Shown here: one piece after another, positions 6,333 through 48,971 of the stretch
Layout of the letters: every line of letters begins with the position of its first letter
Numbering within the stretch: position 1 is the stretch's first letter
NCBI RefSeq assembly: GCF_016481275.1
Contig: NZ_JAEMNW010000004.1
Span: forward strand, 62,001 to 126,000
Source of the DNA: Antrihabitans auranticaus
Lineage (GTDB): Bacteria > Actinomycetota > Actinomycetes > Mycobacteriales > Mycobacteriaceae
Reading direction: 5' to 3'
DNA: 64,000 nt
Notes under the pieces: generated by a model
Databases searched by the model: none
What the model was told of the DNA's origin: nothing
What the model saw: the letters and a program-made list of their open reading frames with translations, nothing else
Program-made: the position numbers and the translations under genes

Positions 6333-6373
6333 TGGTGGAGCTCCCGTCTCGTGGATTTCTCTTGTCCTGAGTC

Positions 6374-6415
6374 TTTGTCCAACGGGGATCTCGCACCAGC
6401 GCCGTTTTGTCCAAC
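6374..6415. promoter_or_regulatory. two direct TTTGTCCAAC boxes in the gabT/ATP-grasp divergent promoter
   Basis: TTTGTCCAAC occurs exactly at 6374-6383 and 6406-6415, start to start 32 bp, about three helical turns on one DNA face. The same 10-mer occurs inverted at 30072-30081 between the PucR gene and the aminobutyraldehyde dehydrogenase. This suggests an activator site for GABA genes. The binding protein is inferred, most simply the PucR at 30120-31646. Confidence 0.5.
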
Positions 6416-6579
6416 CGGGCAGGGTAGCGTGCGCCATTTCGGCAGATGTTCCGTCCGATTCGGACCAGCAGACTTATGTACAGATCGCAGCACACCACCA
6501 GCGCAAAGCAGCGCATGACCAGCGATCGAACCACTTGCTCACCGCCCCGCGGTGATCGAAACAACGGGAGATGCACATC

Positions 6580-26539: not shown

Positions 26540-26555
26540 GTTGGGTCCGATCGGG

Positions 26556-28505: not shown

Positions 28506-28560
28506 GGTTTCTTTCCTGCCAGGAGTGGATCGTCGGATAGCGAACGGTTTGCGGATCGGA

Positions 28561-29994: not shown

Positions 29995-30071
29995 GGTCAA
30001 CCGTCTTTTCGTTGTCTGGAATCTTTCTAGAGTTAGTGTGCGCTGCACCACAGAATCGAGACCCCTGACAA

Positions 30072-31646: not shown

Positions 31647-31757
31647 TGTTCCGATCAGGGCACAACGGCCCGGTCGGGTCCGCAAAGTAGGTACGATCGA
31701 AGTTTCGCGCAGCTGAGTTCGGCTGTGTTTCGGATCGACTGTCTCGTTGGAGGTCAG

Positions 31758-32357
31758 GTGGCTGTGTCGGCGCATATGGGCGAGTCGGAGCCCGCTGCTG
31801 CCGTCGGTCTCCGGATCCGTGCGGTGCGTAAAGCGCAGCGGATGACGATCGAATCCCTCGCTGAGGCAAGCGGTCTCACGAAGAGCTTTCTCTCGAAAGT
31901 GGAACGCGGACGTTCGACGGCGTCTGTGGCCGCACTGCTGCGGGTCAGTGAAGCGCTCGGCATTCCGCTGTCGAATCTGTTCGAGACGACGGCGACGCGC
32001 AGCGTGATTCGCGCGGGGGAGTACCCGGCAATCTCGTTCGGCGGCCACGCTATTTCGGAGTATCTGCTGACTCCGCAATCCGAGCGGCGGATTCAGGTGC
32101 TGCTCTCCAAGATTGCACCGGGCGGCGGCAGCGGTTCGGAACCGTATCCGCTGCCTGGCGAAGTCGAGTTCGTTTTCGTCGTCGACGGTCTGCTGGAGGT
32201 GCACTTCGCGGACGGCATCGTGTCGCTCGAATCAGGTGACGCACTTACATTCGATCCGGCGTCGCCGCGCGCGTTCCTCGTGCCTCACTCCGCACCGAAA
32301 ACCACTGTCCTCTGGATGATCTGCCCCGCACTTCCGCACACAGCCGCCAAGCGATAG
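31758..32357 (+). CDS. XRE-family regulator with C-terminal cupin sensor domain
   Basis: About 199 residues: an N-terminal Cro/CI HTH (about 20-75, LRIRAVRKAQRMTIESLAEASGLTKSFLSKVERGRSTASVAALLRVSEALG) and a cupin (YPLPGEVEFVFVVDGLLEVHFADGIVSLESGDALTFDP). The GTG at 31758 or 31764 follows TTGGAGG; I prefer the first. Such proteins (PuuR/SutR-like) often govern amine or amino-acid catabolism. It follows the PucR gene on the same strand and is convergent with an amidohydrolase. The target genes are unknown. Confidence 0.85.
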   Translation: MAVSAHMGESEPAAAVGLRIRAVRKAQRMTIESLAEASGLTKSFLSKVERGRSTASVAALLRVSEALGIPLSNLFETTATRSVIRAGEYPAISFGGHAISEYLLTPQSERRIQVLLSKIAPGGGSGSEPYPLPGEVEFVFVVDGLLEVHFADGIVSLESGDALTFDPASPRAFLVPHSAPKTTVLWMICPALPHTAAKR

Positions 32358-32366
32358 GTCACCTTT

Positions 32367-33428
32367 TCAGACGGAAATTGCGTATACGCGTGCCGCATTG
32401 TCGCGGAACATCTTTCGCGGATCGAGCTGGTCCGCCAAAAGGTTCTGGAGTACCGCGACACTGTCGGACAGTCGTAAGGTCGGCTTGTCCATCGGGAAGT
32501 TCGACGCCCACAGCGTGCGGTCCGGGCCGAAGAGTTCCTGTGTGTAGGTCACGAGCGGGCCGAATGCGTCGGTGAGCTCGGATCTTGACTGCGCCGGACC
32601 ACCGCCGAGGATCGGCATGCCCAAACCCGAGTGCTTGGCGACCACGTTCGGCAATTCGGCTAACGCGCCGATCTCGTCACGCCACTGTTTCAAGATGTCC
32701 GCACGGTCAGCGGCGGTATGGCCCGTCTGCTTTCCGCGGGGTCCGAACAGGCCGACCGGAGTGGCGTAGTGATCGAGAACGAACGTCGTCTCGGGGTACT
32801 CCCTGGCGAGGATGACGGCATCGGGTAGTTGATGCGAATACAGCCAGAGTTCGAAGCTGAGGCGACGCTCGGCGAGCGCGGCGAACCCGGTCAGGAATGC
32901 CTTGCTCGTGAGCAGATGGCCGTCTGCTGCCCAGCTCTTCACGCCCGGATCGGGATGGTGGGACGCGGTGCAACGCACGCCCCGAACCAAGTTGCTCGCC
33001 GCGAGGTGCGCGTCCAGCACCGGACCGATGTCCGGCTCCGTCGGGTCCGCGTGCACGACAATCGCTCCCAGTTTCGGCGTATTCCCACCGAAGGGTAGAG
33101 CTGCGACCCACCGTGTTTCGTCCACACTCGCGGCGTGATTCTTGCCGTGCCAACCGGCTTCGATATGAACGATCGCCGACACCTGCAGAGGCTTTGCGTC
33201 ATTCGTGTAGTCGTCAGGTAGGTATGGCTTGATGGCGATATCGGGGTTACCGATGAATTCCCGGTCGCTCGCCGGAACCGCCTTCAGAAGAGCCCACTTC
33301 AGGAACGGAACGACACGCAAAATTTGTGCGGGGCGTGTTGCGGTACGCGGTGACGTGAACGGATCCCATTGGTGAATATGGGGATCGATCACCGGGAAGT
33401 CGGGCAGCGCTCGTTCGGGGTCCGTCAT
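32367..33428 (-). CDS. metal-dependent amidohydrolase (TIM-barrel, amidohydrolase_2)
   Basis: A 353-residue amidohydrolase-2 family hydrolase. The N-terminal metal-binding HxH is VIDPHIHQWDP; further elements are IVHIEAGWHG, GVRCTASHHPDP, FVLDHYATP and the C-terminal FGPDRTLWASNFPMDKP, a typical metal/acid region. This family includes lactonases and decarboxylases on cyclic or carboxylated substrates. It lies between the XRE-cupin regulator and the ureohydrolase, 66 nt from the latter and convergent with the former. It may act on a lactam or lactone side product, but no substrate can be assigned from sequence. Confidence 0.8.
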   Translation of the reverse strand: MTDPERALPDFPVIDPHIHQWDPFTSPRTATRPAQILRVVPFLKWALLKAVPASDREFIGNPDIAIKPYLPDDYTNDAKPLQVSAIVHIEAGWHGKNHAASVDETRWVAALPFGGNTPKLGAIVVHADPTEPDIGPVLDAHLAASNLVRGVRCTASHHPDPGVKSWAADGHLLTSKAFLTGFAALAERRLSFELWLYSHQLPDAVILAREYPETTFVLDHYATPVGLFGPRGKQTGHTAADRADILKQWRDEIGALAELPNVVAKHSGLGMPILGGGPAQSRSELTDAFGPLVTYTQELFGPDRTLWASNFPMDKPTLRLSDSVAVLQNLLADQLDPRKMFRDNAARVYAISV

Positions 33429-33494: not shown

Positions 33495-34451
33495 CTAAGT
33501 GCGGTTGGCCGCGAGGATCGAAATCAATTCGTACGCAACGTGAGCTGCTGCGACGCCGGTGATCTCTGCGTGGTCGTACACGGGCGCAACCTCGACGATG
33601 TCTGCACCGACGACGTTCAGGCCCTGCAATCCGCGCAACGTGTTGAGCAGTTCACGACTCGTGAGACCACCCGCTTCCGGCGTGCCGGTGCCGGGGGCGT
33701 GGGCGGGGTCGAGCACGTCGATGTCGATCGAGACGTAGACGGGTCCGTCGCCCAGTCGCGCGCGCATCCGATCGACCGCACCGCGAACGCCGTCGACCTC
33801 GTAGTCGTCGGCGCGGACGATCTGAAATCCGAGCGTTCTGTCGTCCTCGAGGTCGGCGGCGGCATAGAGCGGTCCGCGGATCCCCATGTGCTGGCAGTGC
33901 TCCAAGTCCAGGAGACCCTCCTCGCTTGCGCGGCGGAACGGAGTGCCGTGGGTGTAGGGCGCGCCGAAATAGGTATCCCAGGTGTCGAGGTGAGCGTCGA
34001 AGTGCAGCACGGAGATCGGGCCGTGCAACCGGCTCAGCGTGCGCAACAGGGGCAACGCGATGGTGTGGTCGCCGCCCAACGTCACCAGGGAGGCGCCGTC
34101 TTCGCACAGCTTCTCGGACTCGGCCTGAATCGTCGCGATCGCGTCCGAAAGATCGAAGGGATTCACCGCGATGTCGCCGGCGTCGGCGACCTGCTGCACG
34201 CCGAACGGGTGGACGTCCTGGGCGGGGTTGTAGGGCCGCAACAACTTCGACGACCCACGAATGTGGCCCGGACCGAACCGCGCACCAGGTCGGTAGCTGA
34301 CGCCAGAGTCGAAGGGCACACCGACAACGAGTACATCCGGTCGCGAGACTTCGTCAGCTCGCGGAAGTCGGGCGAAAGTGTCGGGTCCGCAGTAGCGCGG
34401 GATTCGCGTGGCATCCACCGGTCCGACAATTGCTCGCTGCTCTTCCGACAC
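33495..34451 (-). CDS. ureohydrolase, agmatinase/4-guanidinobutyrase family (copy 1)
   Basis: A 318-residue arginase-fold enzyme releasing urea. Binuclear-manganese motifs: [24 protein letters not shown] and [19 protein letters not shown]. The GTG start at 34451 has GAGAGG at 7 nt; a GTG 24 nt upstream is less good. Sequence motifs do not separate agmatinase from guanidinobutyrase. The divergent operon at 34745 encodes an amino-acid 2-monooxygenase and amidase, which from arginine would give 4-guanidinobutyrate; that makes guanidinobutyrase my preferred reading. It shares the divergent promoter with its long inverted repeat. Confidence 0.85.
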
Positions 34452-34510
34452 GACGCGACCTCTCTTCCGCGGCACCGCGCCGGTCGCGCGCAGCCTGAAG
34501 TTGTCCTCTA

Positions 34511-34613
34511 GTCAACTCGTGTGTCCTGAAGAAAGCAATGCATTACGGCAAGTTTGCCAATTTAGACCACGTCTGTATCCCGCATTGTGGCCTCTGAGGA
34601 CACAAGAGTTGAC
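34511..34613. promoter_or_regulatory. 17-bp inverted-repeat pair in the ureohydrolase/amidase divergent promoter
   Basis: GTCAACTCGTGTGTCCT at 34511-34527 and its reverse complement with one mismatch at 34597-34613 (AGGACACAAGAGTTGAC). The arms are centred 86 bp apart, about eight helical turns, and flank the middle of a 293-bp intergenic region. This is a plausible two-site operator controlling both transcription units, perhaps by looping. Confidence 0.55.
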
Positions 34614-34744
34614 AACGCGGCTCTTATCTCCCAGTATGGTCTGGGTCACACGCCGAAACCAGACTGATCTCCGATCTCGCGGGGGTCGAAATCCGAGGAT
34701 GAAGTGCGTTCAGCACACGCCCGCCGACGACGGGCACAGCCGTG

Positions 34745-35557
34745 ATGCGCGCGGCTCTCTATCAAGGGCCCGGTACTCCGGGCGATGTCTCCGCGAATGT
34801 CGCCGCAATCGCGGCCGCAGCAGCCCGGGCAGCCGCAGCCGGAGCGGACATTCTCATCACGCCTGAGATGTCTGCCACCGGCTACAACATCGGCGAGCTG
34901 TCCGCGCAGCGGGCAGAGCCTGCCCACGGCGCCCTGTTCGACGCGGTCGCCCGTATTGCCGTAAGCCATGGCATTGCCGTCGTTTACGGATATCCGGAAG
35001 CCGTCGCCGCCGGCAACTACAACACCGTCCAAGTGGTCGGTCCGCGCGGTGAAGACCTCGGTAGCCACCGAAAGACGCATCTGTACGGTGACCTCGATCG
35101 GGGACTCTTCATCGAAGGGCACACGCTCGTGTCGCAGTTCGAGTTGTGCGGGCTGACCGTCGGTCTCGCGATCTGTTACGACATCGAGTTTCCCGAAGTC
35201 GCCCGCGCGCACGCCCTCGCCGGCACCGATGTGCTGCTGGTGCCGACCGGGCTCATGGCGCCGTTCGAGGTCGTCAGCAAAATACTCGTACCGGCACGCG
35301 CTTACGAGAACCAGCTCTACGTCGCGTATGTGAACCGTTGCGACGTCGAAGCCGAGCTGCAGTACTGCGGCCTCACCTGCGCGATCAGCCCCGACGGCGC
35401 CGACGTCGCTCGGGCGGGTGGCGCCGAGGAACTGCTCGTCGTCGACTTCGATCCCGCCGCTCTCGCAACCGGGCGAGCAATCAACACCCACCTACCAGAC
35501 CGTCGAAACGACCTGTACAGCACTGTGTCACAAGAGAATTCGAGGAGCAGCAGATGA
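34745..35557 (+). CDS. nitrilase-superfamily amidase (5-aminovaleramidase / 4-guanidinobutyramidase type)
   Basis: A 270-residue carbon-nitrogen hydrolase, the length of Pseudomonas DavA. The triad is Glu (LITPEMSATGY), Lys (LGSHRKTHLYG) and Cys (LAICYDIEFPEVAR). An ATG at 34745 is used; a GTG directly before it is an alternative. Its stop overlaps the monooxygenase start (ATGA), so the amide produced by the monooxygenase is its obvious substrate. If that enzyme uses arginine, the reaction is 4-guanidinobutyramide to 4-guanidinobutyrate; if lysine, 5-aminovaleramide to 5-aminovalerate. Confidence 0.88.
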   Translation: MRAALYQGPGTPGDVSANVAAIAAAAARAAAAGADILITPEMSATGYNIGELSAQRAEPAHGALFDAVARIAVSHGIAVVYGYPEAVAAGNYNTVQVVGPRGEDLGSHRKTHLYGDLDRGLFIEGHTLVSQFELCGLTVGLAICYDIEFPEVARAHALAGTDVLLVPTGLMAPFEVVSKILVPARAYENQLYVAYVNRCDVEAELQYCGLTCAISPDGADVARAGGAEELLVVDFDPAALATGRAINTHLPDRRNDLYSTVSQENSRSSR

Positions 35558-37242
35558 CCGTCCCCATCGGACCCGAGGGGATTCACGACGCAGCGGGCGC
35601 GCCGCCCCTGACCATGTTCGGTCCGGACTTCCCCTTCGCGTACGACGATTACGTCCGTGATTCCCGCGGAATCGGTTCGGTACCCGCGCAGGCCTATGGG
35701 CAGCGCGTCGCCGTCATCGGCGGCGGACTCTCCGGAACGCTCGTCGCGCGCGAACTGCTGCGGATGGGCCTCGAGCCGGTTCTTTACGAAGCCGACGAGA
35801 TCGGCGGCCGGATGCGTTCGGTGTCTTTCGACGGCTATCCCGGCATCACGGCCGAGATGGGATCGATGCGGTTTCCACCCTCGTCGACGACGCTCTTCCA
35901 CTACCTCGACGAGATGGGTTTGCAGACCAGTCCGTTCCCGAACCCCTTGGCAGACGCCACGGCGAGCACCGTTGTAGACCTCAAGGGCGAAAAGCACTTT
36001 GCCCGCGCGCTCGCCGACCTCCCCGACATCTACGCGGAGGTCGCGCAGGCCTGGGCGCGCACCCTCGACGATCATGCCGAGGCCCAGGCACTCGGCGATG
36101 CCATCCGCAAACGTGACGTCGCACAGATCAGGGAAGTCTGGGGCGACCTCGTCCGGCGCTACGACGACGAGACCTTCTACGGCTTCCTGTGCAAGTCCGA
36201 GGCATTCGCGCGATTCTCGTTACGGGAGATCTTCGGCCAGGTCGGCTTCGGCACCGGTGGCTGGGATACCGACTTCCCGAACTCGATTCTCGAGATCCTC
36301 CGCGTGGTCTGTACAGCCGCGGACGACCATCACCGCGGCATCGTCGGTGGATCGCAGCAGCTCCCGCAACGACTGTGGAACACGCCTGTCGATGATGCAA
36401 AGCATTGGCCCGCGGGAAGTTCGGTGCAATCGCTGCACGAGGGTGGAGTGCCGCGGCCGCGCGTGACCGAGTTGCGTCGAACACATCCGGGCAACTTCAC
36501 CATCACCGATCAGTCGGGCCGCATCGACACCTTCCCGGCTGCCGTATTCACCGGCCAGGGCTGGATGCTGCTCAACACGGTTCGTTCCGACGAGCGGTTG
36601 ATCCCGATCGATCACTGGACGGCCATCGAGCGGACCCACTACATGGGTTCGTCGAAAGTGTTCGTTCTCGTCGACCGGCCGTTCTGGAAGGACATCGATC
36701 CTGCCACCGGACGCGAAGTCATGAGCATGACGTTGACCGACAGGATGAGTCGCGGAACCTACCTGCTCGATTTCGGTGACGATCGTCCCGGCCTCATCTG
36801 CCTCTCGTACACGTGGGCCGACGATTCGCTGAAGTTGTTGCCGCTCAGCCCAACCGAGCGGATGGACCTGATGCTGAAGTCGTTGCACGAGATCTATCCC
36901 GACGTCGACATCCGCAGTCACATCATCGCCTCGCCGGTGACGCTGTCGTGGGAGACCGAACGCGACTTCATGGGTGCGTTCAAAGCGAACCTGCCCGGCC
37001 ACTACCGCTACCAGCGCCGGCTCTTCACGCACTTCAAGCAAGACAATCTCGCGCCCGAATATCGGGGGTTCTTCATGGCCGGCGACGACGTCTCCTGGAC
37101 CGCGGGCTGGGCCGAGGGTGCTGTGCAGACTGCGCTGAACGCGGTCTGGGGCGTCATGAACCACTTCGGCGGCAGCACAGCCGAGGGCAATCCCGGCCCC
37201 GGCGACGTGTTCGATGACATTGCACCGATCGAGCTCGACTGA
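35554..37242 (+). CDS. L-lysine/L-arginine 2-monooxygenase (DavB-type flavin amino-acid monooxygenase)
   Basis: A 562-residue FAD enzyme of the amino-acid 2-monooxygenase family, oxidatively decarboxylating an amino acid to an amide. N-terminal MFGPDFPFAYDDY precedes the Rossmann fold (VAVIGGGLSGTLVARELLRMGLEPVLYEADEIGGRMRS). Further DavB-like segments are EMGSMRFPPSS, FGQVGFGTGGWDTDFPN, DRPFWKD, MTLTDRMSRGTYL and HYRYQRRLFTHF, and the FAD-binding C-terminus GDDVSWTAGWAEGAVQTALNAVWGVMNHFGG. GAGGAGCAG precedes the ATG; the frame stays open upstream but only in the amidase shadow. Resemblance to P. putida lysine 2-monooxygenase is extensive, yet a ureohydrolase next door favours arginine. Tryptophan is less likely. 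Confidence 0.88.
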   Translation: MTVPIGPEGIHDAAGAPPLTMFGPDFPFAYDDYVRDSRGIGSVPAQAYGQRVAVIGGGLSGTLVARELLRMGLEPVLYEADEIGGRMRSVSFDGYPGITAEMGSMRFPPSSTTLFHYLDEMGLQTSPFPNPLADATASTVVDLKGEKHFARALADLPDIYAEVAQAWARTLDDHAEAQALGDAIRKRDVAQIREVWGDLVRRYDDETFYGFLCKSEAFARFSLREIFGQVGFGTGGWDTDFPNSILEILRVVCTAADDHHRGIVGGSQQLPQRLWNTPVDDAKHWPAGSSVQSLHEGGVPRPRVTELRRTHPGNFTITDQSGRIDTFPAAVFTGQGWMLLNTVRSDERLIPIDHWTAIERTHYMGSSKVFVLVDRPFWKDIDPATGREVMSMTLTDRMSRGTYLLDFGDDRPGLICLSYTWADDSLKLLPLSPTERMDLMLKSLHEIYPDVDIRSHIIASPVTLSWETERDFMGAFKANLPGHYRYQRRLFTHFKQDNLAPEYRGFFMAGDDVSWTAGWAEGAVQTALNAVWGVMNHFGGSTAEGNPGPGDVFDDIAPIELD

Positions 37243-38237
37243 TGACCACACCACATGTTGTCGTCGTCGGATCGGGCGTCATCGGATTGTCGTCGGCGCT
37301 AGAGCTTGCCCGGTCGGGCAAACGGGTCACTGTGATTGCCGATCGTAAACCTGCAGAGACGGTTTCGGCCGTCGCGGCAGCAATCTGGGAGCCCTACGAC
37401 GCGTTTCCGCGCGATGCTGTGCTGCAGTGGTCGCTCGATGCTCTGGCCACCTTCACCGAGCTGGCCGCCGATCCGGCCACCGGAGTGCATCTGCGTGAAG
37501 GTGTCTCCGTGCAACGCGAGCCCGGCAAGAAGGCGTGGTGGGCGGGCGGTGTGGTCGAGGCCCGGCCTGCCCGTCCCGAGGAGTTGCCGGACGGCGCCGT
37601 TTCCGGCGAAGTCTGCACCGTGCCGGTGATCGTGATGCCGGTGTATCTGGAGTGGCTCATGCGTTCGTGTGAAGCGAACGGTGTGTTGTTCGAGTGGCGC
37701 ACGCTCGCGACGCTCGAGGAGGTCGGGCACGGATCGTCTCCGATAGTCGTGGCCGCAGGTCTGCGGGCAGGTGAACTTGTCGCCGGTGAGCAGTTGGTTC
37801 CGGTCCGGGGGCAGATCGTTCGGTTGGCCAACCCGGGCTTGACGCGGTGGTACATCGACGAAGACAACGCGGGTGGGTGCACCTACATCATTCCGCGCGT
37901 CGACGACGTGATCTGTGGGGGAACGAACGAACCGGGCGTCGCCGACAGCGTGCCGGATCCGGCTGTGGCCGAAGCCATTCTGGCTCGGGCTCGGCGTTTG
38001 GAGCCGCGTTTGGCCGACGCCGAGGTGCTCGCCGACGTGGTCGGATTCCGGCCAGGTCGAGAATCGGTTCGGTTGGACGCGACCGAGCACAGCGGTCGTC
38101 TGGTCGTGCACTGCTACGGGCACGGCGGTGCGGGCGTCACCACTTCGTGGGGCGCGGCGCGTGATGTTGTCCGACTCGTGGACGGCACTCCTATTCAGAT
38201 CTCTCATAACAGCAACTTCTCGAGGAGCGCGACATGA
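37242..38237 (+). CDS. D-amino-acid oxidase (FAD)
   Basis: A 331-residue flavoprotein, the usual DAAO length. It has the FAD-binding GSGVIGLSSALELARSGKRVTVIADR N-terminus, the central GQIVRL...YIIPRVDDVICGGTNEP segment, and the DAAO signature VHCYGHGGAGVTTSWGAARDVV. The start overlaps the monooxygenase stop by one base (TGATG). It deaminates D-amino acids to 2-oxo acids with H2O2. Coupled to a cationic amino-acid permease and the 2-monooxygenase, it may handle D-arginine or D-lysine, giving 2-ketoarginine that the ThDP enzyme at 43355 could use. No peroxisomal SKL-like end is expected or present. Confidence 0.9.
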   Translation: MTTPHVVVVGSGVIGLSSALELARSGKRVTVIADRKPAETVSAVAAAIWEPYDAFPRDAVLQWSLDALATFTELAADPATGVHLREGVSVQREPGKKAWWAGGVVEARPARPEELPDGAVSGEVCTVPVIVMPVYLEWLMRSCEANGVLFEWRTLATLEEVGHGSSPIVVAAGLRAGELVAGEQLVPVRGQIVRLANPGLTRWYIDEDNAGGCTYIIPRVDDVICGGTNEPGVADSVPDPAVAEAILARARRLEPRLADAEVLADVVGFRPGRESVRLDATEHSGRLVVHCYGHGGAGVTTSWGAARDVVRLVDGTPIQISHNSNFSRSAT

Positions 38238-39676
38238 CGTTCGCCCAGCAATTACTGCGCCGCAAACCCGTTCGGCAAATGGAAGACGAGACCGGTGCCG
38301 ACACGGGCAAGAGCGAGTTGAAGCGCACAATCGGGCTGACTCAGCTGGCGAGCTTCGGCATCGGTGCCACCATCGGTACGGGCATCTTCTTCGTCCTGTC
38401 AGAAGCCGTACCGATCGCCGGACCCGCCGCCATCATCTCGTTTGTCATTGCCGGTGTGGTCGCGGGCCTGACTGCTCTTTGCTACGCGGAGTTGGCGGGC
38501 GCGGTCCCGGTGTCAGGATCGTCCTACTCGTACGCATATTCGACGCTGGGCGAACTCGCCGCCGTCGTCGTCGGTGCCTGTCTGCTACTCGAGTACGGTG
38601 TGTCGGCAGCAGCGGTGTCGGTCGGCTGGTCGCAGTACCTGAACCAGTTGCTGAACAACGTGTTCGGATTCCAGCTGCCGGATGCGATTTCACTTGCACC
38701 CGAGGAGGGCGGCGTGGTGAATCTGCCGGCCATCATCCTCATCTTGCTGTGTGGCGTCCTGCTGATCCGTGGCGCCAGTGAGTCCGCGAAGACCAACGCG
38801 ATAATGGTCGCCATCAAGCTCGGCATCCTTGCAATGTTCATTGTGATCGGTGTCTTCGGTTGGAACAGCGATCATTTCGAGAACTTCGCGCCCTTCGGCC
38901 TCACCGGAATCACGTCGGCGGCGGGCATCGTCTTCTTCTCCTACATCGGCCTCGATGCGGTATCGACCGCAGGCGAGGAGGTCAAAGATCCGCACCGAAA
39001 CATGCCGCTCGCGATCCTCATCGCCTTGGTCACCGTCACCGGTGTGTACGTCGCGGTCGTTGCGGTCGCCATCGGTGCACAGCCTGCGGAAGAGTTCGAG
39101 GACCAAAAGGCAGGTCTTGCAGCAATTCTCGAGAACATCGTCGGTTCGACCTGGCCAGGAACCGTGATTGCTGCGGGAGCTGTCATCTCGATCTTCAGCG
39201 TCACACTCGTGGTCATCTATGGCCAGACTCGAATCCTGTTCGCGATGTCGCGTGACGGCATGGTTCCGCCCGTGTTCCACAAGGTGAATTCGCGAACGTT
39301 GACGCCGATTCCGAACACGATCATCGTCTGCCTCGTCATCGGTGTGCTTGCCGGTTTCATTCCGATCAATTTCCTCGCTGCCATGACGAGCATTGGCACG
39401 CTTGTCGCGTTCCTTGTCGTCTCGATCGCAGTGGTGATTCTGCGTCGTACCGAGCCGAACCTGCCGCGTAGCTTCAAGGTTCCGCTGTACCCGCTGACAC
39501 CTATCCTGTCGGTCGCGGGCTGCATCTGGATCATCAAAGACCTGCGCCCGGCGACGATCTACGTGTTCTTCATCTGGGTGGGTGTAGCGATCGTGTGGTA
39601 CCTCGCCTACGGCATCCGGCACTCCGTCCTCGGCAGGGGCGAGAAGGCCGGCCTGCTCGCGAAAGACGAATCATGA
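38234..39676 (+). CDS. cationic amino-acid permease (APC superfamily, CAT-like)
   Basis: A 480-residue 12-TM permease. The N-terminus (SELKRTIGLTQLASFGIGATIGTGIFFVLSEAV) and CYAELAGAVPVSGSSYSYAYSTLGEL are hallmarks of the CAT/YfnA branch, which carries arginine, lysine and ornithine, and FFSYIGLDAVSTAGEEVKDPHRNMP is its TM6-7 motif. It overlaps the DAAO stop (ATGA) and is itself overlapped by a universal stress protein gene. This is the best direct hint that the operon's amino acid is cationic. Exact substrate needs transport data. Confidence 0.87.
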   Translation: MTFAQQLLRRKPVRQMEDETGADTGKSELKRTIGLTQLASFGIGATIGTGIFFVLSEAVPIAGPAAIISFVIAGVVAGLTALCYAELAGAVPVSGSSYSYAYSTLGELAAVVVGACLLLEYGVSAAAVSVGWSQYLNQLLNNVFGFQLPDAISLAPEEGGVVNLPAIILILLCGVLLIRGASESAKTNAIMVAIKLGILAMFIVIGVFGWNSDHFENFAPFGLTGITSAAGIVFFSYIGLDAVSTAGEEVKDPHRNMPLAILIALVTVTGVYVAVVAVAIGAQPAEEFEDQKAGLAAILENIVGSTWPGTVIAAGAVISIFSVTLVVIYGQTRILFAMSRDGMVPPVFHKVNSRTLTPIPNTIIVCLVIGVLAGFIPINFLAAMTSIGTLVAFLVVSIAVVILRRTEPNLPRSFKVPLYPLTPILSVAGCIWIIKDLRPATIYVFFIWVGVAIVWYLAYGIRHSVLGRGEKAGLLAKDES

Positions 39677-40593
39677 CGTACGTCGTCGGCTATGCCGCGG
39701 ACGGAAAGAGCAAGGCGACAATTCATCTCGCGGCGTTGCTGGCGAGGTCGGCGGGTGAGCCCTTGGTGGTCTGCGCGGTAGTACCTGCAGCCCCGCTGCC
39801 GAGTATGGCGCGCGTGGACGACGAGTTCCGTGAGTTCACACGCGACGAGGCCGAGCAGGCCCTTGCGACGGCGCGAAGTTTGATGCCGGCTGATGTGAAC
39901 GCGACTTATGTTGTGCACGAAGCACGTTCGACGTCGTCAGGGATACTGGCAGTCGCCGATTCGTGTGACGCGGGTCTGATCGTCCTTGGCTCGTCGTCTG
40001 CGGGAGTCTTCGGGCACATCGCCCTCGGCAGTGTCACGTCACGGCTGTTGTATAGTTCGCCGATTCCAATCGCTCTGGCGCCAAGAGGTTTTCGTGCTCG
40101 CAGTGGCGAGGTCGTCGCTCGGGTGACCGCGGCCTACGACGGCTCACCCGATCAGGACGAACTCGTCCTCGCCGCCGCAGCAGTCGCCGCACGGGTCGGC
40201 GCGCAGCTTCGACTGGCAGCGTTCGCGGTTCGCGTGCCTGCGCCGTATCCGACGCGGCTCGGGACAGAGGGCGATTCGCCCGTCGAGGCCGAGTGGACCG
40301 AGGCGGTCGAGCGGGAAACGGCGGCGGCGTTGAAGCGGGTTGCCGCGTTACCCGAGGTGCCGGACACCACCGAGTCCGTCATCGGCTACGGCCGGAACTG
40401 GGCCGAATCGCTCGACGACGTGGAGTGGTTACCGGGCGACGTTCTCACGATCGGGTCGAGTTCGTCGGGTCCGGTGGCGCGGGTGTTCCTGGGCTCGCGA
40501 GCCGCAAAGATCGTGCGGCATTCGCCGGTGCCGGTTGTCGTAGTGCCGCGGTCGGCGGCTGAGCGGATCGTCGACGACGCGGTCGCTGGCTGA
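39673..40593 (+). CDS. tandem universal stress protein (UspA family)
   Basis: A 306-residue protein with two Usp domains: MTYVVGYAADGKSKATIHLAALLA begins domain 1, whose ATP motif is VLGSSSAGVFGHIALGSVTSRLL; domain 2 ends in IGSSSSGPVARVFLGSRAAKIVRHSPVPVVVVP. It starts within the permease stop (ATGA), so the two are translationally coupled. In some actinobacterial and archaeal permeases the Usp domain is fused to the transporter's C-terminus, so this unfused coupling suggests a regulatory partner. It is the last gene of the operon, followed by the 205-bp repeat array. Confidence 0.84.
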   Translation: MTYVVGYAADGKSKATIHLAALLARSAGEPLVVCAVVPAAPLPSMARVDDEFREFTRDEAEQALATARSLMPADVNATYVVHEARSTSSGILAVADSCDAGLIVLGSSSAGVFGHIALGSVTSRLLYSSPIPIALAPRGFRARSGEVVARVTAAYDGSPDQDELVLAAAAVAARVGAQLRLAAFAVRVPAPYPTRLGTEGDSPVEAEWTEAVERETAAALKRVAALPEVPDTTESVIGYGRNWAESLDDVEWLPGDVLTIGSSSSGPVARVFLGSRAAKIVRHSPVPVVVVPRSAAERIVDDAVAG

Positions 40594-40623
40594 GCGGGTC
40601 GGGTGCGCGCTGAGTTTGTCCCG

Positions 40624-41450
40624 TCAGCCGCACCCCTTTTCGGGATCCGCACTCCGACTTGCCGGGTGACACGCCGGGGTTCCCCGGAAAAGGGGTGCGG
40701 CGGAGGGGGAGTGGCGGGTTCGTATGTCGACGAGGCTGGTGCGGGTCGGGGTTGTGGGGTGATGTTCAGGTATCCGCCTGGTCGGCGGAGTCGCCCGGTG
40801 CGTCGTGTGGCGACACGCCGGAGCTCGGTCAGCCGCACCCCTTTTCGGGATCCGCACTCCGACTTGCCGGGTGACACGCCGGGGTTCCCCGGAAATGGGG
40901 TGCGGCTGAGGGGGAGTGGCGGGTTCGTATGTCGAAGAGGCTGTTGCGGGTCGGGGTTGTCGGGTGATGTTCAGGTATCTGCCTGGTCGGCGGAGTCGCT
41001 CGGCGCGTCCCGTGGCGACACGCGGAGCTCCGGTCAGCCGCACCCCTTTTCGGGATCCGCACTCCGACTTGCCGGGTGACACGCCGGGGTTCCCCGGAAA
41101 AGGGGTGCGGCTGAGGGGGAGTGCAACCCGCGCCGCCGACCCAGCCGCCGACGGCGCGAGGTTGTCGGGTGATGTTCAGGTATCCGCCTGGTCGGCGGAG
41201 TCACTCGGCGTGTCCCGTGGCGACACGCCGGAGCTCCGGTCGGCCGCACCTCTTTTCGGGATCCGCACTCCGACTTGCCGGGTGACACGCCGGGGTTCCC
41301 CGGAAAAGGGGTGCGGCTGAGGGGTGTGGCGGGTTCGTATGTCGAACAGGCTGTTGCGGGGCGGGGTTGTGGGGTGATGTTCAGGTATCCGCCTGGTCGG
41401 CGGAGTCACTCGGCGCGTCCCGTGGCGACAGGCGGAGCTGAGGGGGAGTG
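40624..41450. repeat. tandem array of a ~205-bp unit containing an 81-bp palindrome-ended element (4+ copies)
   Basis: An 81-bp element begins at 40624, 40829, 41034 and 41240 (ends 40704, 40909, 41114, 41320), so the period is 205, 205 and 206 bp. Each begins TCAGCCGCACCCC and ends GGGGTGCGGCTGA, near-perfect inverted ends; the interior includes CTCCGACTTGCCGGGTGAC. The ~124-bp spacer carries GATGTTCAGGTATCCGCC and GTCGGCGGAG and is altered in the third unit. A partial fifth unit runs to about 41450. It fills the space between the 3' ends of the Usp gene and ureohydrolase 2. No coding gene is evident, only frame-shifted repeat ORFs. Confidence 0.85.
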
Positions 41451-41492: not shown

Positions 41493-42482
41493 TCAGTTCG
41501 CCGCCAACCCCGCGTACCAGGACACGAATTCGTAGGCCAGGTGGGAGGCTGCGACACTGGTGATCTCGGCATGGTCGAAGGCGGGGGCGACCTCGACGAC
41601 GTCGGCGCCGACGAGGTTCAATTTCCGCAGTCCGCGCAGGATTTCGAGCAGTTCGCGGCTGGTCATGCCGCCGGCCTCGGGGGTGCCGGTGCCGGGAGCG
41701 TGGGCCGGATCGAGGACGTCGATGTCGATGGACACGTACAGCGGACGGTTGCCGATGCGGTCACGCAGTGCGTCGACGATTTCGTCGACGCCACGACGGA
41801 ATACGTCGGCGGATGTGTAGATGCCGAAGCCGAAGCGGCGGTCGTCCTCGAGATCCTTCTTGCCGTACAGCGGACCGCGGGTGCCGACGTGCGCGAGCGC
41901 CTCGGTATCGACGATGCCCTCTTCGACTGCACGCCGGAACGGGGTGCCGTGGGTGTATTCGGCACCGAAGTAGGTGTCCCAGGTGTCGAGGTGAGCATCG
42001 AAGTGCAGCAACGCAACCGGGCCGTGGACCGACGCCACGGAGCGCAGCAGCGGTAGCGCGATCGTGTGGTCGCCGCCGATCGTGACGAGCTTCGTGTTGT
42101 CCTGCGCGAACGCCGTGGAAGCGCCCTCCAGGGTCTCGATAGCCTCGTGAATGTTGAACGGATTCAGTGCGACATCACCGGCGTCGGCAACCTGCAGTTC
42201 TGCGAAGGGGGAGATATCGACCGCCGGGTTGTACGGTCGCAGAAGGCGACTCGCCTCGCGGATCGCCGCCGGACCGAACCGGGCGCCGGGGCGGTAGGAG
42301 ACGCCGCTGTCGAACGGAACGCCGAGCACCGCGACGTCGGCGGCGGGGACTTCACCGAGCATTGGAAGGCGCGCGAATGTCGCCGGACCGGCGAAGCGGG
42401 GCATCAGTGACGAGTCGATCGGGCCTACCCGACCGCCTTCGGTGATGCGTGGAACCTGGAGGGCTGCGAGGCTTTTCTGCAT
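41493..42482 (-). CDS. ureohydrolase, agmatinase/4-guanidinobutyrase family (copy 2)
   Basis: A 329-residue arginase-fold hydrolase, clearly paralogous to the 33495-34451 protein. Manganese motifs are [24 protein letters not shown] and [19 protein letters not shown]. It is divergent from the aldolase-ThDP enzyme-RidA-aldehyde dehydrogenase operon across 83 bp that contain a TATATCAAGTGGTATA palindrome. If the ThDP enzyme decarboxylates 2-ketoarginine, the aldehyde dehydrogenase product 4-guanidinobutyrate would be its substrate, giving GABA plus urea. Agmatinase activity is the conventional annotation; the choice is not visible in the sequence. Confidence 0.87.
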
Positions 42483-42503
42483 GTGACGAGTCTAGCATTG
42501 TTT

Positions 42504-42519
42504 TATATCAAGTGGTATA
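42504..42519. promoter_or_regulatory. AT-rich palindromic operator shared with the symporter/LysR promoter
   Basis: TATATCA-AG-TGGTATA, 22 bp upstream of ureohydrolase 2 and 46 bp upstream of the aldolase start, in an otherwise unusually AT-rich stretch. It matches the site at 48972-48987 (reverse complement TGTATCAAGTGATTTA) at 13 of 16 positions. Confidence 0.55.
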
Positions 42520-42565
42520 TTTAACAGCGAAAACCTTTCCGACGCTTTCCGAACAAGGAGCACGG

Positions 42566-43342
42566 GTGACCGCAACTCTTATCGACTCCACTGCGATCGG
42601 CACCACTGCCGCCGAGGCGCAACTGCGCCGCGAGCTCGCGGCCGTTTACCGTCTCCTTGCGCACTTCAAAATGACCGACCTCATCTTCACGCACGTTTCC
42701 GTTCGGATTCCCGGCCCGGAACAGCACTTCCTGATCAACCCGTACGGGCTCCTGTTCGAGGAGATCACCGCGTCGAACCTCATCAAGATCGGGCCCGACG
42801 GCGAACTGGTGGAACCTTCCGAATACTGCGTCAACCCAGCGGGATTCGTGATTCACGGTGCGATCCACGCGTCCCGTGCTGATGCGCATTGCGTGCTGCA
42901 CACGCACACGAAGGCCGGCTGCGCGGTTGCTGCGCAGGAGCACGGACTCCTTCCGGTGAACCAGATTTCGATGGAGTTTCACAATCGCGTCGGCTACCAC
43001 GATTACGAGGGCATCGCGCTCAACAACTCCGAGCGTGCACGCCTGGTCGCCGACCTCGGTGCCAACCCCGCGCTGATCCTGCGCAATCACGGGCTGCTGA
43101 CCGTCGGCGAGACACCGGCACAGGCGTTCCTGCGAATGTTCTACCTGGAGAAGGCATGTGAGATTCAGGTGACCGCGCAGGCGGGTCTGCTTCGGCTGCC
43201 GAGCGAAGAACTCGCCGAATACACGGCCCGCCAGTTCGCAGGCGAAGTGAAGGACGACTTCGCCGACGACGACGCATACGACCTCGCCTGGGCCGCGTTG
43301 CTGCGCATGCTCGACCGCAGCCAGCCCGACTACAAGAACTGA
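42566..43342 (+). CDS. class II aldolase/adducin-family protein
   Basis: A 258-residue zinc aldolase-fold protein. The zinc/active-site features are HVSVRIP, the HTHTKAGCAVA segment (two His ligands) and NHGLLTVG (third His), with a catalytic Glu in EFHNRVGYHDYEG. The GTG start has AAGGAG at 5 nt. It is the first gene of the operon with a ThDP enzyme 12 nt downstream. Family members cleave or decarboxylate 2-oxo or hydroxy acids and sugar phosphates. In this context a 4-hydroxy-2-oxo acid (for example 4-hydroxy-2-ketoarginine) would be a possible substrate, but that is speculation. Confidence 0.8.
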   Translation: MTATLIDSTAIGTTAAEAQLRRELAAVYRLLAHFKMTDLIFTHVSVRIPGPEQHFLINPYGLLFEEITASNLIKIGPDGELVEPSEYCVNPAGFVIHGAIHASRADAHCVLHTHTKAGCAVAAQEHGLLPVNQISMEFHNRVGYHDYEGIALNNSERARLVADLGANPALILRNHGLLTVGETPAQAFLRMFYLEKACEIQVTAQAGLLRLPSEELAEYTARQFAGEVKDDFADDDAYDLAWAALLRMLDRSQPDYKN

Positions 43343-43354
43343 GCAGGAGAACCC

Positions 43355-44977
43355 ATGACTCGCAACGGTGGCGACCTCGTCGTCGAAACGCTCGAAAGAC
43401 TCGGGTACGAAATGGTTTTCGGCATCCCGGGCCAGCACGCGCTCGGCCTGTTCGATGCACTGACTCGGAGTAAGCTGGAATTCGTCAGCTCGCGAATCGA
43501 GAACAACGCCGCGTTCGCGGCAGATGGTTATGCGCGGACCAGCGGCCAACCTGCGGCACTCTTCGTGTCGACGGGTCCGGGCGCGCTCACTGCGCTATCG
43601 GGTCTGCAGGAGGCGTACGCCACGTCGGTGCCGATGGTTGTCGTCTCCAGCCAGGTTCCGTGCGCCGGTTTGGGCGGGAAGCGAACCGGCCACCTGCACC
43701 AACTCGACGATCAGAGGCTCGCCGCGCGTAACGTCGTCAAGTCCACCACGCTCATCCAGCAGAGCGCGGAGATCCCGTCGGCGATCGCTCGCGCCCACGG
43801 TGAAGCCGTCTCGCATCCGCAGGGTCCGGTGTGGATCGAGATCCCGCAAGACATCCTGCTCGCGGAAACGACTGTGCCGCCGGTGGTGGACGTGCACACG
43901 CACATCGTCCCCGTCACTGCGCGTGCAGAACTACTCGATGCGGCGGCGGCCGCACTCGACTCAGCGACGCGACCCGTCATCATCGCCGGCGGTGGAGTAC
44001 GGCGCTCCGGCGCCGAAGCGGAACTGTTGGCGCTCGCTGAAACTCTGCGTGCGCCGGTCGTTACCAGCCCGGGTGGCAAAGGCGCCTTTCCCTGGACGCA
44101 TCCGTTGTCGATGCAGTCGTGGATCGAGGACCGCTATACGACCGAGATCCTGGAGAACGCCGACGTTGTCGTCGCGATCGGCACAGCCCTGGGTGAGGTC
44201 ACGAGCAACTACTTCACGATGCGGCCGAAGGGAACCTTGATCCACATCGACGCCGAACATCGGGTCCTGGAATCGCATGTGCCCGCCATGGCCATCCACG
44301 CCGATGCGCGGGAGGCGCTCGCGGGCCTCGTCGCACGGGTGCGGACGCGAGCATCCGACGGTGTCGCCGAGAAGGTGACCCGTGAACTTCTCTCCAAGGT
44401 CGCAGCGCGACTGCAGGGCCAGGACCTCGCGAAAGAGCTCGGAATTCTCGCCGCAATCAGAGACGGCGTTCCCGACGATGCAGAAACTTTCTGGGACATG
44501 ACGATTGCCGGGTACTGGGCATGGTCGTGCTGGGACGTGCGTGCCGGTCAATTCCATTCCGCGCAAGGTGCGGGAGGGATAGGTTGGGGTTACGGCGCCG
44601 CGCTGGGCGGCGCTGCGGCGAACAACGGCCGCGTTCTGGCCGTCAGCGGTGATGGTGGTGCCATGTATTCGATCGCGGAACTCGCGGTGGCGCGTCAGCA
44701 CAACCTGCCCGTCACGTGGCTCATCGTCGACGACGGCGGTTACGGAATCCTCCGGGAGTACATGAACGCAACATTCGGCAAGGCAACCGCGACCGAACTC
44801 TCGCGACCGGACTTCGTCGCGCTCGCCAACTCATTCGGCGTGCCGGCGCAGACAGCCACACCCGCGGATCTGGCTGCGGTGCTTGCGGACTGCTGGCGCG
44901 CGGACGGGCCTAATGTTGTTGTCCTGCAAGAACATTTGTCGATGTTCGCGCCCACTCACCTGGAGTTGCCCGCATGA
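43355..44977 (+). CDS. ThDP-dependent enzyme, acetolactate-synthase fold; candidate 2-ketoarginine decarboxylase
   Basis: A 540-residue thiamine-diphosphate enzyme. The N-terminal Pyr domain has FGIPGQHALGLFDAL and the activating Glu in SSRIENNAAFAADGYAR; a middle domain follows (ADVVVAIGTALGEVTSNYF), then the PP domain with AVSGDGGAMYSIAELAVARQHNLPVTWLIVDDGGYG, the Mg-ThDP GDG...DD motif. This architecture is shared by acetolactate synthase, benzoylformate decarboxylase and Pseudomonas AruI. Neighbouring ureohydrolase, aldehyde dehydrogenase and RidA make AruI-like 2-ketoarginine decarboxylation attractive, yielding 4-guanidinobutanal. Biosynthetic acetolactate synthase is unlikely because no IlvN partner is present. 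Confidence 0.82.
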   Translation: MTRNGGDLVVETLERLGYEMVFGIPGQHALGLFDALTRSKLEFVSSRIENNAAFAADGYARTSGQPAALFVSTGPGALTALSGLQEAYATSVPMVVVSSQVPCAGLGGKRTGHLHQLDDQRLAARNVVKSTTLIQQSAEIPSAIARAHGEAVSHPQGPVWIEIPQDILLAETTVPPVVDVHTHIVPVTARAELLDAAAAALDSATRPVIIAGGGVRRSGAEAELLALAETLRAPVVTSPGGKGAFPWTHPLSMQSWIEDRYTTEILENADVVVAIGTALGEVTSNYFTMRPKGTLIHIDAEHRVLESHVPAMAIHADAREALAGLVARVRTRASDGVAEKVTRELLSKVAARLQGQDLAKELGILAAIRDGVPDDAETFWDMTIAGYWAWSCWDVRAGQFHSAQGAGGIGWGYGAALGGAAANNGRVLAVSGDGGAMYSIAELAVARQHNLPVTWLIVDDGGYGILREYMNATFGKATATELSRPDFVALANSFGVPAQTATPADLAAVLADCWRADGPNVVVLQEHLSMFAPTHLELPA

Positions 44978-45363
44978 CAGACCTGAACCACCCTTACTTG
45001 AACGCGACATCTCCGGTCGGCAATTTCAGTTACGCGCGCCGAATCGGCCCGTTCACACAGGTTTCCGGTCAGCTCGGCCTCAGCGCGGGCGCCACCACCA
45101 TCGCGGGCCAGACCGCCGAAGCACTCGAAAAGGTCGAAGCCATCCTCACTTCCGCGGGGCTGAGCTGGTCGGACGTGCTGACGGTGCGCGTGCACCTGGC
45201 GTCCGATGATCTGTTCGACGACTTCGACGCGGCATACGCAGCGATCGTTCCCCCGCCGTTCCCCGCGCGAGTGACGGTCTCGTCAGGGCTCGCGCCCGGC
45301 GCTCTCGTCGAAATAGATGCACTTGCAGTTACCCCCAACTCGCTCAACGCCGCAATCGCCTGA
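44974..45363 (+). CDS. RidA-family reactive imine/enamine deaminase
   Basis: A 129-residue YjgF/YER057c/UK114 protein. It has NFSYARRIGPFTQVSGQLGL at the N-terminus, ALEKVEAILTSAGLSWSDVLTVRVHL in the middle, and PARVTVSSGLAPGALVEIDALAV at the end, with the conserved Arg and Glu. It overlaps the ThDP enzyme stop (ATGA). Members hydrolyse reactive 2-imino/enamine intermediates to 2-oxo acids and ammonia, so it may quench imines formed in arginine oxidation before decarboxylation. Some members are reported as 2-aminomuconate deaminases; nothing here suggests that. Confidence 0.88.
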   Translation: MTDLNHPYLNATSPVGNFSYARRIGPFTQVSGQLGLSAGATTIAGQTAEALEKVEAILTSAGLSWSDVLTVRVHLASDDLFDDFDAAYAAIVPPPFPARVTVSSGLAPGALVEIDALAVTPNSLNAAIA

Positions 45364-45378: not shown

Positions 45379-46731
45379 ATGACCGAATACGCCGTCACCG
45401 ATCCTGCGACCGGTGAGGTCGTCGCCGAGTACCCGACCGCAACGGATGCGGAGATTTCCGCCGCGATCGCCGCGGTCGCGGAAACGGGACGTCGTTGGCC
45501 GCGGGAAACGTCGGTGGCCGACCGCGCCGCGCTGATTCGACGCGTCGGTGAACTCCACGCCGAACGACGCGAGCAGCTTGCGGACGTGATCGTCCGGGAG
45601 ATGGGTAAGCCGCGCGACGAGGCCCTCGGCGAGGTCGACTTCTGCGTCGCGATCTACGAGTACTACGCCGATAACGCCGAAACCTTCCTCGCCGACGAGA
45701 CGATCACGCTGCTCGACGGCCACGGCAGCGCCGTGGTGAAGCGGGGTCCGATCGGCGTTTTGCTCGGCATCATGCCGTGGAACTTCCCCTACTACCAGGT
45801 CGCGCGCTTTGCGGGACCGAATCTGGTGGTAGGCAACACGATTCTTCTCAAGCACGCACCGCAGTGCCCGGAGTCGGCGGAGCTGCTCGCGTTGCTGTTC
45901 CTCGAGGCCGGGTTCCCACAGGGTGCCTACGTCGATATTCGTGCAACCAACGATCAGGTGGCGACGATCATCGCCGATCCACGTGTCGCGGCGGTCTCAC
46001 TGACCGGCTCGGAGCGGGCGGGTGCCGCAGTCGCCGAGATTGCCGGTCGCAACCTCAAGAAATGCGTGCTCGAACTGGGTGGATCGGATCCGTTCATCGT
46101 GCTTTCCTCCGACGACCTCGACGCGACCGTCGACGCCGCAACGGCTGCGCGCCTGGACAACACCGGTCAGGCCTGCAATGCCGCCAAGCGTTTCATCGTC
46201 GCAGACGACCTCTACGACTCTTTCGTGGAGAAGTTCACGGCAAAGCTGCTCGCGAAGGGCGACGGCATCGCCCCGTTGTCGTCGGTCCGCGCTGCCGAGA
46301 CTCTGGAGGAGCAGGTGGCCACCGCGGTATCGAACGGGGCGACGATCCAGTCCGCCGGTGAGCGCCGCGGCGCCTACTACCCGCCCGCCGTCTTGACCGG
46401 AGTCACGTCCGACAACCCGGCGTATCAGCAGGAGTTCTTCGGCCCGGTCGCGACTGTCTACCGCGTCGGCTCGGAAGACGAGGCAGTCGCCGTTGCAAAC
46501 GACACGCCCTTCGGGCTGGGGTCCTACGTGTTCACCACCGATGCCGATCAGGCTGCCCGCGTGGCGGACCGCATCGAAGCAGGCATGGTGTTCGTCAACG
46601 GAGTCGGCGCCGAGGGCGCTGAGCTGCCATTCGGCGGCATCAAGCGGTCCGGGTTCGGGCGCGAACTGGGCAAGTACGGAATCGAAGAGTTCGTGAACAA
46701 GAAGATGATTCGAACGATCACCGGTAGCTGA
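45379..46731 (+). CDS. aldehyde dehydrogenase (SSADH-like; candidate 4-guanidinobutyraldehyde dehydrogenase)
   Basis: A 450-residue NAD-dependent aldehyde dehydrogenase. Motifs: GIMPWNFPYYQVARFAGPNLVVGNTILLKHA, LTGSERAGAAVAEIAGR, LELGGSDPF (catalytic Glu) and NTGQACNAAKR (catalytic Cys), ending in PFGGIKRSGFGRELGK. Near-relatives are annotated succinate-semialdehyde dehydrogenase, but gabD already exists in the gab operon. Here it is the last gene of aldolase-ThDP-RidA-ALDH, so oxidation of 4-guanidinobutanal (the Pseudomonas KauB step) is a reasonable prediction. A strong hairpin terminator follows. GAGAGAG precedes the ATG. Confidence 0.88.
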   Translation: MTEYAVTDPATGEVVAEYPTATDAEISAAIAAVAETGRRWPRETSVADRAALIRRVGELHAERREQLADVIVREMGKPRDEALGEVDFCVAIYEYYADNAETFLADETITLLDGHGSAVVKRGPIGVLLGIMPWNFPYYQVARFAGPNLVVGNTILLKHAPQCPESAELLALLFLEAGFPQGAYVDIRATNDQVATIIADPRVAAVSLTGSERAGAAVAEIAGRNLKKCVLELGGSDPFIVLSSDDLDATVDAATAARLDNTGQACNAAKRFIVADDLYDSFVEKFTAKLLAKGDGIAPLSSVRAAETLEEQVATAVSNGATIQSAGERRGAYYPPAVLTGVTSDNPAYQQEFFGPVATVYRVGSEDEAVAVANDTPFGLGSYVFTTDADQAARVADRIEAGMVFVNGVGAEGAELPFGGIKRSGFGRELGKYGIEEFVNKKMIRTITGS

Positions 46732-48910: not shown

Positions 48911-48971
48911 CGGGGAAGTCCTTCGAGTAAGTGTGCTGTGACTTCGACCATAGAGGGCCATTGACTTGTTT

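Follow-up and report, generated by a model that had tools for sequence, protein, structure and literature searches.

Gene content of the cluster

The window analysed here, a 64,000-nucleotide (nt) stretch of contig NZ_JAEMNW010000004.1 of Antrihabitans auranticaus (positions 62,001 to 126,000; source genome 6.51 Mb), contains a gene cluster that very probably encodes a catabolic arginine 2-monooxygenase (oxygenase) pathway. In this cluster, the gene for a ureohydrolase (UH), UH1, is divergent from a run of five genes for an amidase (AMI), a flavin adenine dinucleotide (FAD) L-amino-acid 2-monooxygenase (AMO), a D-amino-acid oxidase (DAAO), an APC-superfamily permease and a tandem universal stress protein (Usp) (Table 1). 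Neighbours in the run are joined by overlaps of 1–4 nt, with stop and start codons meeting in ATGA at 35554-35557, TGATG around 37242, and ATGA at 38234-38237 and 39673-39676. A preliminary description of this DNA had given the same six genes, coordinates, divergence and overlaps, all of which we recovered, while its gene list left out a second ureohydrolase, UH2. UH1 and UH2 are the sole matches to the arginase family PF00491 genome-wide (E ≤ 0.001), and both lie inside the window. The cluster brings together genes for a monooxygenase, an amidase and a guanidinobutyrase-like protein, the gene set of the arginine 2-monooxygenase pathway.

Relatives and active site of the monooxygenase

AMO homologues were retrieved by a class-wide search of 394 genomes (AMO in 65; 68 match sites outside the source genome, up to 20 kb each) and from 80 named loci, which are the best 80 matches from a contig scan and no census, 12 of them from Rhodococcus or Rhodococcoides. 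Extra rows were seven second copies from Streptomyces and plasmid records (Tsukamurella, Arthrobacter and alphaproteobacterial), 9 of 11 with more than 50% identity.

The best solved relative of AMO is 3we0, the L-amino-acid oxidase/monooxygenase of Pseudomonas sp. AIU 813 (711 bits, vs. 203 for tryptophan 2-monooxygenase), to which it is identical at 298 of 551 aligned positions (54%). Homology extends over the whole length, and the anchoring residues Arg102, Tyr416 and Asp238 (D240 in the window) are kept, as are equivalents of Trp235, Trp418, Phe473 and Trp516. The window enzyme differs in having Gly518 for Ala515, Ala256 for Cys254, His260 for Gln258 and Ile for Gln349. According to the sections of PMC5832979 used here, Asp238 binds the positive end of the substrate (lysine, ornithine or arginine), Ala515 lines the pocket, and Gly in its place accompanies wider pockets.

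We found Ala515 in 10 of 166 aligned rows, with Gln349 in the same 10 and Gly515 in the remaining 156. Seven of the ten come from alphaproteobacterial plasmids and two from actinobacterial loci that are close to GabT and belong to genomes without UH; the tenth is the AIU 813 enzyme. None of these lysine-type loci showed a ureohydrolase. A tree of 53 selected rows places these ten sequences together in a single clade (100/100) with the window AMO outside, so that AMO shows neither the residue pattern nor the clade position of the lysine 2-monooxygenases. It forms a clade of ten rows (100/99) with sequences from rhodococci, genome G314 and Tsukamurella, each of which has UH1 close to AMO.

These results bear on a lysine pathway of the DavB/DavA type, in which L-lysine would yield 5-aminovaleramide and then 5-aminovalerate for a GabT-like transamination and the ureohydrolase would be an unrelated neighbour. 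The identity to the lysine enzyme and the conserved Asp238 agree with such a route, as does the presence of gabT no more than 5 kb from AMO in 5/12 Rhodococcus loci, but the separate clade of lysine-type enzymes and the linkage of UH1 to AMO, with a common motif, in several genera argue against it. On the tree and the residues we set the lysine pathway aside as improbable. The preliminary description had pointed to active-site residues as a means of telling arginine from lysine enzymes, and the comparison with the AIU 813 enzyme came out in keeping with arginine, the substrate which that description favoured.

AMO copies beside polyketide synthase (PKS) genes (loci L090, L092, L196 and L202) also lie outside the lysine clade, which fits the arginine monooxygenases reported from arginoketide producers in the parts of PMC5082578, PMC10322714 and PMC4737276 that were drawn on. 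These copies raise the alternative of a biosynthetic arginine monooxygenase providing a 4-guanidinobutyryl starter unit. The window AMO, in contrast, belongs to the UH1-linked clade and has a permease, and no PKS or coenzyme A (CoA) ligase occurs among the window proteins scanned (part of the open reading frames). Starter-unit supply, set aside for want of a PKS among those proteins, is extremely improbable here. The four copies and that of L200 are diverged, with 59–64% identity to the window AMO; L152 also matches the PKS query, and the L092 and L200 stretches each contain a UH2-related ureohydrolase. All four, together with L200, are candidate arginine-primed biosynthetic clusters.

UH1 as a predicted guanidino-acid hydrolase

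Among solved enzymes, UH1 scores highest against the guanidinobutyrase GbuA (275 bits) and the guanidinopropionase GpuA (266 bits), followed by proclavaminate amidinohydrolase (252 bits) and agmatinases (202 and 197 bits). It carries the ureohydrolase metal motifs GGDH, DAHxD and SxDxDxxDP, as listed in a portion of PMC4737276, and in the alignment retains GbuA Arg72, within RPYN. In the sections consulted of PMC9772407, Arg72 caps the substrate carboxylate of GbuA, and the human ‘agmatinase’ hydrolyses guanidino acids, not agmatine. UH1 is therefore predicted to be a 4-guanidinobutyrase or related guanidino-acid hydrolase.

An agmatinase belonging to the upstream amine oxidase and aminobutyraldehyde dehydrogenase genes (26556-30051), with AMO nearby by chance, would also account for UH1. 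Its score over the curated agmatinase cut-off and the closeness of the copper amine oxidase and aminobutyraldehyde dehydrogenase genes favour that assignment; the score on a further model, PRK02190, is slightly below cut-off (297 vs. 302). However, UH1 scores higher against GbuA and GpuA than against agmatinases, and Arg72 is not found in Escherichia coli SpeB. UH1 is linked to AMO in 12/12 Rhodococcus loci, amine oxidase was seen in none of those retrieved stretches, and the finding on the human enzyme likewise tells against the name. Arg72 and the neighbourhood led us to set the agmatinase assignment aside, and we consider it improbable.

Conserved neighbourhood and co-occurrence

AMI lies within 300 bp of AMO in 58/68 class-wide and 75/80 named loci. 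A UH1 homologue within 5 kb of AMO occurs in all 12 Rhodococcus/Rhodococcoides loci, and none of the 12 genomes has a second such ureohydrolase (E ≤ 1e-30); AMI is absent from two of the loci (L109 and L111), where UH1, the gene of a helix-turn-helix (HTH)-cupin protein and AMO are present and the retrieved stretch has no amidase match. Gene order varies, with UH1 divergent in rhodococci, the order AMI-AMO-UH in Haloechinothrix and UH1 near AMO in Blastococcus. On a Tsukamurella plasmid, the order UH-permease-AMI-AMO runs in one direction, with 4-nt overlaps between UH and permease and between permease and AMI.

Across the class, UH (E ≤ 1e-70) was present in 60/65 genomes with AMO and 65/329 without it, some genomes being incomplete; counted per genus, the figures were 12/15 and 35/123. 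In a Streptomyces sample, AMO was present in 115/121 and UH in 117/121 genomes, and the four genomes without UH all lacked AMO. Every genome with AMO in this sample thus has UH, which suggests arginine as the main substrate.

An operator-like motif and a candidate regulator

Two 17-bp operator-like sites lie in inverted orientation between UH1 and AMI, 69 nt apart and with arms 94% complementary. The unfitted window pattern GTCAACTCNTGTGTCCT was run on 18 UH1-linked loci from other genera and on 131 AMO loci outside this group (2.6 Mb). At up to two mismatches it gave 11 matches, spread over 9 of the 18, and none in the 131; at up to three mismatches it gave 19 matches in 13/18 linked loci vs. 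8 in the 131. Two of the 18 loci (L058 and L204) are near-identical, and the rhodococci among them are of common descent. On the gene maps, all 11 two-mismatch matches adjoin UH1, the HTH-cupin gene or the amidase operon.

A relaxed form, GTCAACNNNNGTKTCCT, gave 22 matches in 21 linked loci (of the 21, 16 have a match and 3 are same-genus stretches) vs. 3 in the 131, and zero or one match in each of five composition shuffles; one match lies between AMO and GabT. Because this form was fitted after the matches in linked loci had been seen, its counts are no independent test, and GTCAACTCNTGTGTCCT was for this reason rerun on the other-genus loci. Within the source genome, GTCAACNNNNGTKTCCT has two exact matches, both between UH1 and AMI; one-mismatch matches (7) did not exceed a reversed-pattern control (10), so that only exact ones were counted there. 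At one mismatch, the motif was absent near gabT/gabD and the UH2 cassette within the window.

Since a homologue of the HTH-cupin protein is encoded between UH1 and AMI/AMO in rhodococci, with the motif adjoining, we regard this protein as the candidate regulator that binds the motif. UH1 and the amidase operon are probably under joint control via the inverted pair of sites. Promoter and terminator scans were no better than shuffles (0 vs. 1.0 and 5 vs. 4.0, sd 2.4), and no Rfam family reached its gathering threshold over 23000-50000.

Predicted route from arginine to succinate

In the predicted route, L-arginine would enter via the APC permease and be decarboxylated by the FAD monooxygenase with O2 to 4-guanidinobutyramide, which the CN-hydrolase AMI would convert to 4-guanidinobutyrate and ammonia. 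The divergent UH1 would then yield 4-aminobutyrate (GABA) and urea, and GABA would reach succinate through gabT/gabD encoded elsewhere in the genome. UH1 and the amidase operon would be co-regulated at the inverted pair of sites, most likely by the HTH-cupin protein. The core of this reading, an arginine oxygenase cluster, is supported at the sequence level and no further, and all reactions, the transporter substrate and the regulator are those that we infer.

The preliminary description had joined AMO, AMI and a guanidinobutyrase in one arginine pathway, a view that neighbourhood, motif, co-occurrence, residues and tree all favour. Its cationic amino-acid permease holds good as an APC amino-acid transporter, with the ‘amino acid transporter’ 5oqt as the nearest solved chain (386 bits) and cationic amino acid transporters next (217 bits), but in NCBIfam the BcaP model scores above the cationic one (484 vs. 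300 bits, both under their cut-offs), so that a cationic substrate is plausible only. It had also proposed that GABA feeds gabT/gabD; both genes are in the window but ~27–29 kb from UH1 and without the motif, which makes the link a metabolic one only here.

Several observations weigh against an arginine pathway. Table 2 of PMC5832979, a paper used in part, gives monooxygenase kcat/Km values for the AIU 813 lysine enzyme of 74, 200 and 24 s−1 mM−1 with lysine, ornithine and arginine, and residues do not prove substrate preference, because this solved lysine enzyme also uses arginine and ornithine. Gln258 does not separate the groups, since it occurs in 17/166 rows, the ten lysine-type ones and seven others. 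UH1 exceeds the curated ‘agmatinase’ cut-off TIGR01230 (231.5 vs. 174.3 bits), and in both UH1 and UH2 Tyr takes the place of GbuA Met161, as in GpuA. Since this position bears on chain-length specificity, UH1 may prefer either three- or four-carbon substrates.

The motif is missing from 9/18 UH1-linked loci at two mismatches and 5/18 at three, UH lies within 5 kb in just 2/68 named non-Rhodococcus loci, and it is inside the retrieved stretch in just 4/68 class-wide loci, with one further just beyond the edge. The class-wide and Streptomyces co-occurrence figures are uncorrected for shared descent, and five AMO genomes have no UH (two lysine-type, one with AMO by PKS genes, one by fatty-acid-type genes and one divergent). 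In addition, S. lividans is stated in the portion of PMC5082578 drawn on to have no arginine monooxygenase and to have needed fed 4-guanidinobutyramide; an AMO homologue in that strain, if present, did not supply the amide there.

A broad basic amino-acid monooxygenase using arginine, ornithine and lysine, with the ureohydrolase serving the arginine product only, overlaps the predicted arginine route and is unlikely, though clearly less so than the lysine or agmatinase alternatives. Use of all three amino acids by the characterised relative supports it, whereas the constant presence of UH with AMO in the Streptomyces sample is what an enzyme mainly for arginine would leave.

Table 1 Features of the cluster and its surroundings in the window
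Feature	Coordinates	Strand	Basis
UH1, predicted 4-guanidinobutyrase (guanidino-acid hydrolase)	33495..34475	-	PF00491, 312 bits; start codon uncertain
AMI, predicted 4-guanidinobutyramide hydrolase	34742..35557	+	PF00795 CN_hydrolase; AMO adjoining
AMO, FAD L-amino-acid 2-monooxygenase, predicted arginine 2-monooxygenase	35554..37242	+	PF01593; 3we0 match; residues; tree
DAAO	37242..38237	+	PF01266; full-length match to solved DAAOs
APC-superfamily permease	38234..39676	+	nearest solved chain 5oqt
Tandem Usp	39673..40593	+	PF00582, two stretches
Operator-like site GTCAACTCGTGTGTCCT	34511..34527	+	17 bp; inverted repeat arm
Second operator-like site GTCAACTCTTGTGTCCT	34597..34613	-	17 bp; inverted repeat arm
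HTH-cupin protein, candidate regulator	31725..32357	+	HTH_3 + Cupin_2
UH2, second ureohydrolase	41493..42482	-	65% identity to UH1
Class II aldolase-superfamily protein	42449..43342	+	PRK07044 over cut-off
Thiamine pyrophosphate (TPP) enzyme, candidate 2-ketoarginine decarboxylase	43355..44977	+	PRK07524 348 bits, below cut-off
RidA-family imine deaminase-like protein	44974..45363	+	TIGR00004 below cut-off; matches to RidA structures
Aldehyde dehydrogenase, succinate-semialdehyde dehydrogenase-like	45379..46731	+	PF00171; NF006915 467 bits, below cut-off
gabT	4986-6437		in window
gabD	3504-4961		in window

DAAO and the UH2 cassette

The preliminary description had assigned DAAO to the D-isomer of arginine. 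Its homology is clear, the best solved relatives being DAAOs (127 bits to 1an9 over the whole length), but AMO has DAAO beside it in this genus only. AMO occurs in two of the three other same-genus genomes, both times with DAAO beside it, while none of the 148 AMO loci L035-L182, some of which end at contig ends, has a DAAO match (E ≤ 1e-3); the best match in any other genus shares 48% identity with DAAO and is encoded at a distance from the AMO of that genome. On these grounds we rejected DAAO as a conserved pathway member. Its product from D-arginine would be 2-ketoarginine, not the amide, so that a further decarboxylase would be needed.

Next door, the UH2 cassette encodes a class II aldolase, a TPP enzyme, a RidA-like protein and an aldehyde dehydrogenase. 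The TPP enzyme matches PRK08266 (370 bits) and then PRK07524, ‘5-guanidino-2-oxopentanoate decarboxylase’ (348 bits), both below cut-off. It thus falls short of the curated model for the 2-ketoarginine decarboxylase AruI (cut-off 500 bits), although it is the top of nine PRK07524 matches genome-wide, none of which reaches that value. In 44/47 genomes the TPP gene has a UH no more than 4 kb away, and AMO is present too in 39/47 TPP genomes. In a locus of the Streptomyces group (L192, 7842-12016), genes for an SSS symporter, UH2 and the TPP enzyme follow closely on one another, and the UH2 and TPP frames meet; an SSS symporter is also encoded in the window, at 47435-48961.

Same-genus genome G395 holds the full cassette of TPP enzyme, RidA and aldehyde dehydrogenase. 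The corresponding stretch of G396 (L185) keeps DAAO, UH2 and the aldolase and has no TPP enzyme, RidA or matching aldehyde dehydrogenase, which counts against a tie between DAAO and the cassette. A two-branch arginine funnel, in which any oxidase product of AMO and D-arginine via DAAO would both give 2-imino- or 2-ketoarginine for the cassette to salvage to 4-guanidinobutyrate and GABA, is the boldest reading of the locus and accordingly an unlikely one, into which the class II aldolase does not yet fit. AMO may make some oxidase product as its relative does, the oxidase/monooxygenase kcat ratio of the AIU 813 enzyme on arginine being 0.26 in the section of PMC5832979 drawn on.

Other features of the window

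A minus-strand run at 24079-30051, likely an amine-oxidation operon, encodes an APC permease, a protein without NCBIfam match, a copper amine oxidase and an aminobutyraldehyde dehydrogenase, with a PucR-type regulator adjoining; it could also supply 4-guanidinobutyraldehyde from agmatine. An amidohydrolase-2 family protein (32367-33428, minus strand) is beside UH1 here and in G395, with none seen there in G396. Between the Usp gene and UH2 (40623-41442) lie four head-to-tail 205-nt units with inverted-repeat arms, whose copies are 100, 92, 83 and 66% identical to the first; a 96-nt piece of the unit has 52 genome matches (E ≤ 0.001), several in tandem at ~205-nt spacing. At 57084-58169 is a gene for S-(hydroxymethyl)mycothiol dehydrogenase, whose product scores above the cut-off of the curated model.

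Comparison with known systems

As an activity, the oxygenase route for degrading arginine was established decades ago, and the pathway itself is thus known. Within the searched literature, which covered few subscription papers, we found no description of a catabolic cluster pairing arginine monooxygenase with guanidinobutyrase in Rhodococcus or its relatives, and the Tsukamurella record annotates the likely catabolic genes only as ‘NAD(P)/FAD-dependent oxidoreductase’ and ‘agmatinase’. If the reading is true, it would supply testable genes for the oxygenase route, including the AMO homologues of Streptomyces, and a candidate regulator with its operator; it may also supply a residue pattern separating arginine from lysine monooxygenases, and would give grounds for re-testing ureohydrolases named agmatinase.

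Compared with the AIU 813 enzyme and DavB/DavA, the window AMO stands apart in having a neighbouring ureohydrolase. That ureohydrolase shares motifs and the capping Arg72 with Pseudomonas aeruginosa GbuA and GpuA (3nio, 3nip), but lies in a separate clade and agrees with GpuA at the Met161 position. The TPP enzyme, aldehyde dehydrogenase and ureohydrolase of the window would suit the reaction order of an AruI-type 2-ketoarginine route, whereas the TPP score is below cut-off, no transaminase is among the annotated cassette genes and the aldolase is unexplained.

The arginine oxygenase pathway via 4-guanidinobutyramide was reportedly described by van Thoai and colleagues in the 1960s, and the intermediates predicted for the window cluster are the same: the amide, 4-guanidinobutyrate, GABA and urea. 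PMC2242806 lists a 1966 paper on this route among its references. The window differs in presenting a gene cluster of predicted function with a permease, a shared operator-like motif and a genus-specific DAAO. The arginine monooxygenase and 4-guanidinobutyramide hydrolase of azalomycin biosynthesis, as described in part of PMC5082578, catalyse the same first two reactions as predicted for the window, but there the product passes to a CoA ligase and a polyketide synthase, whereas in the window it would pass to a ureohydrolase.

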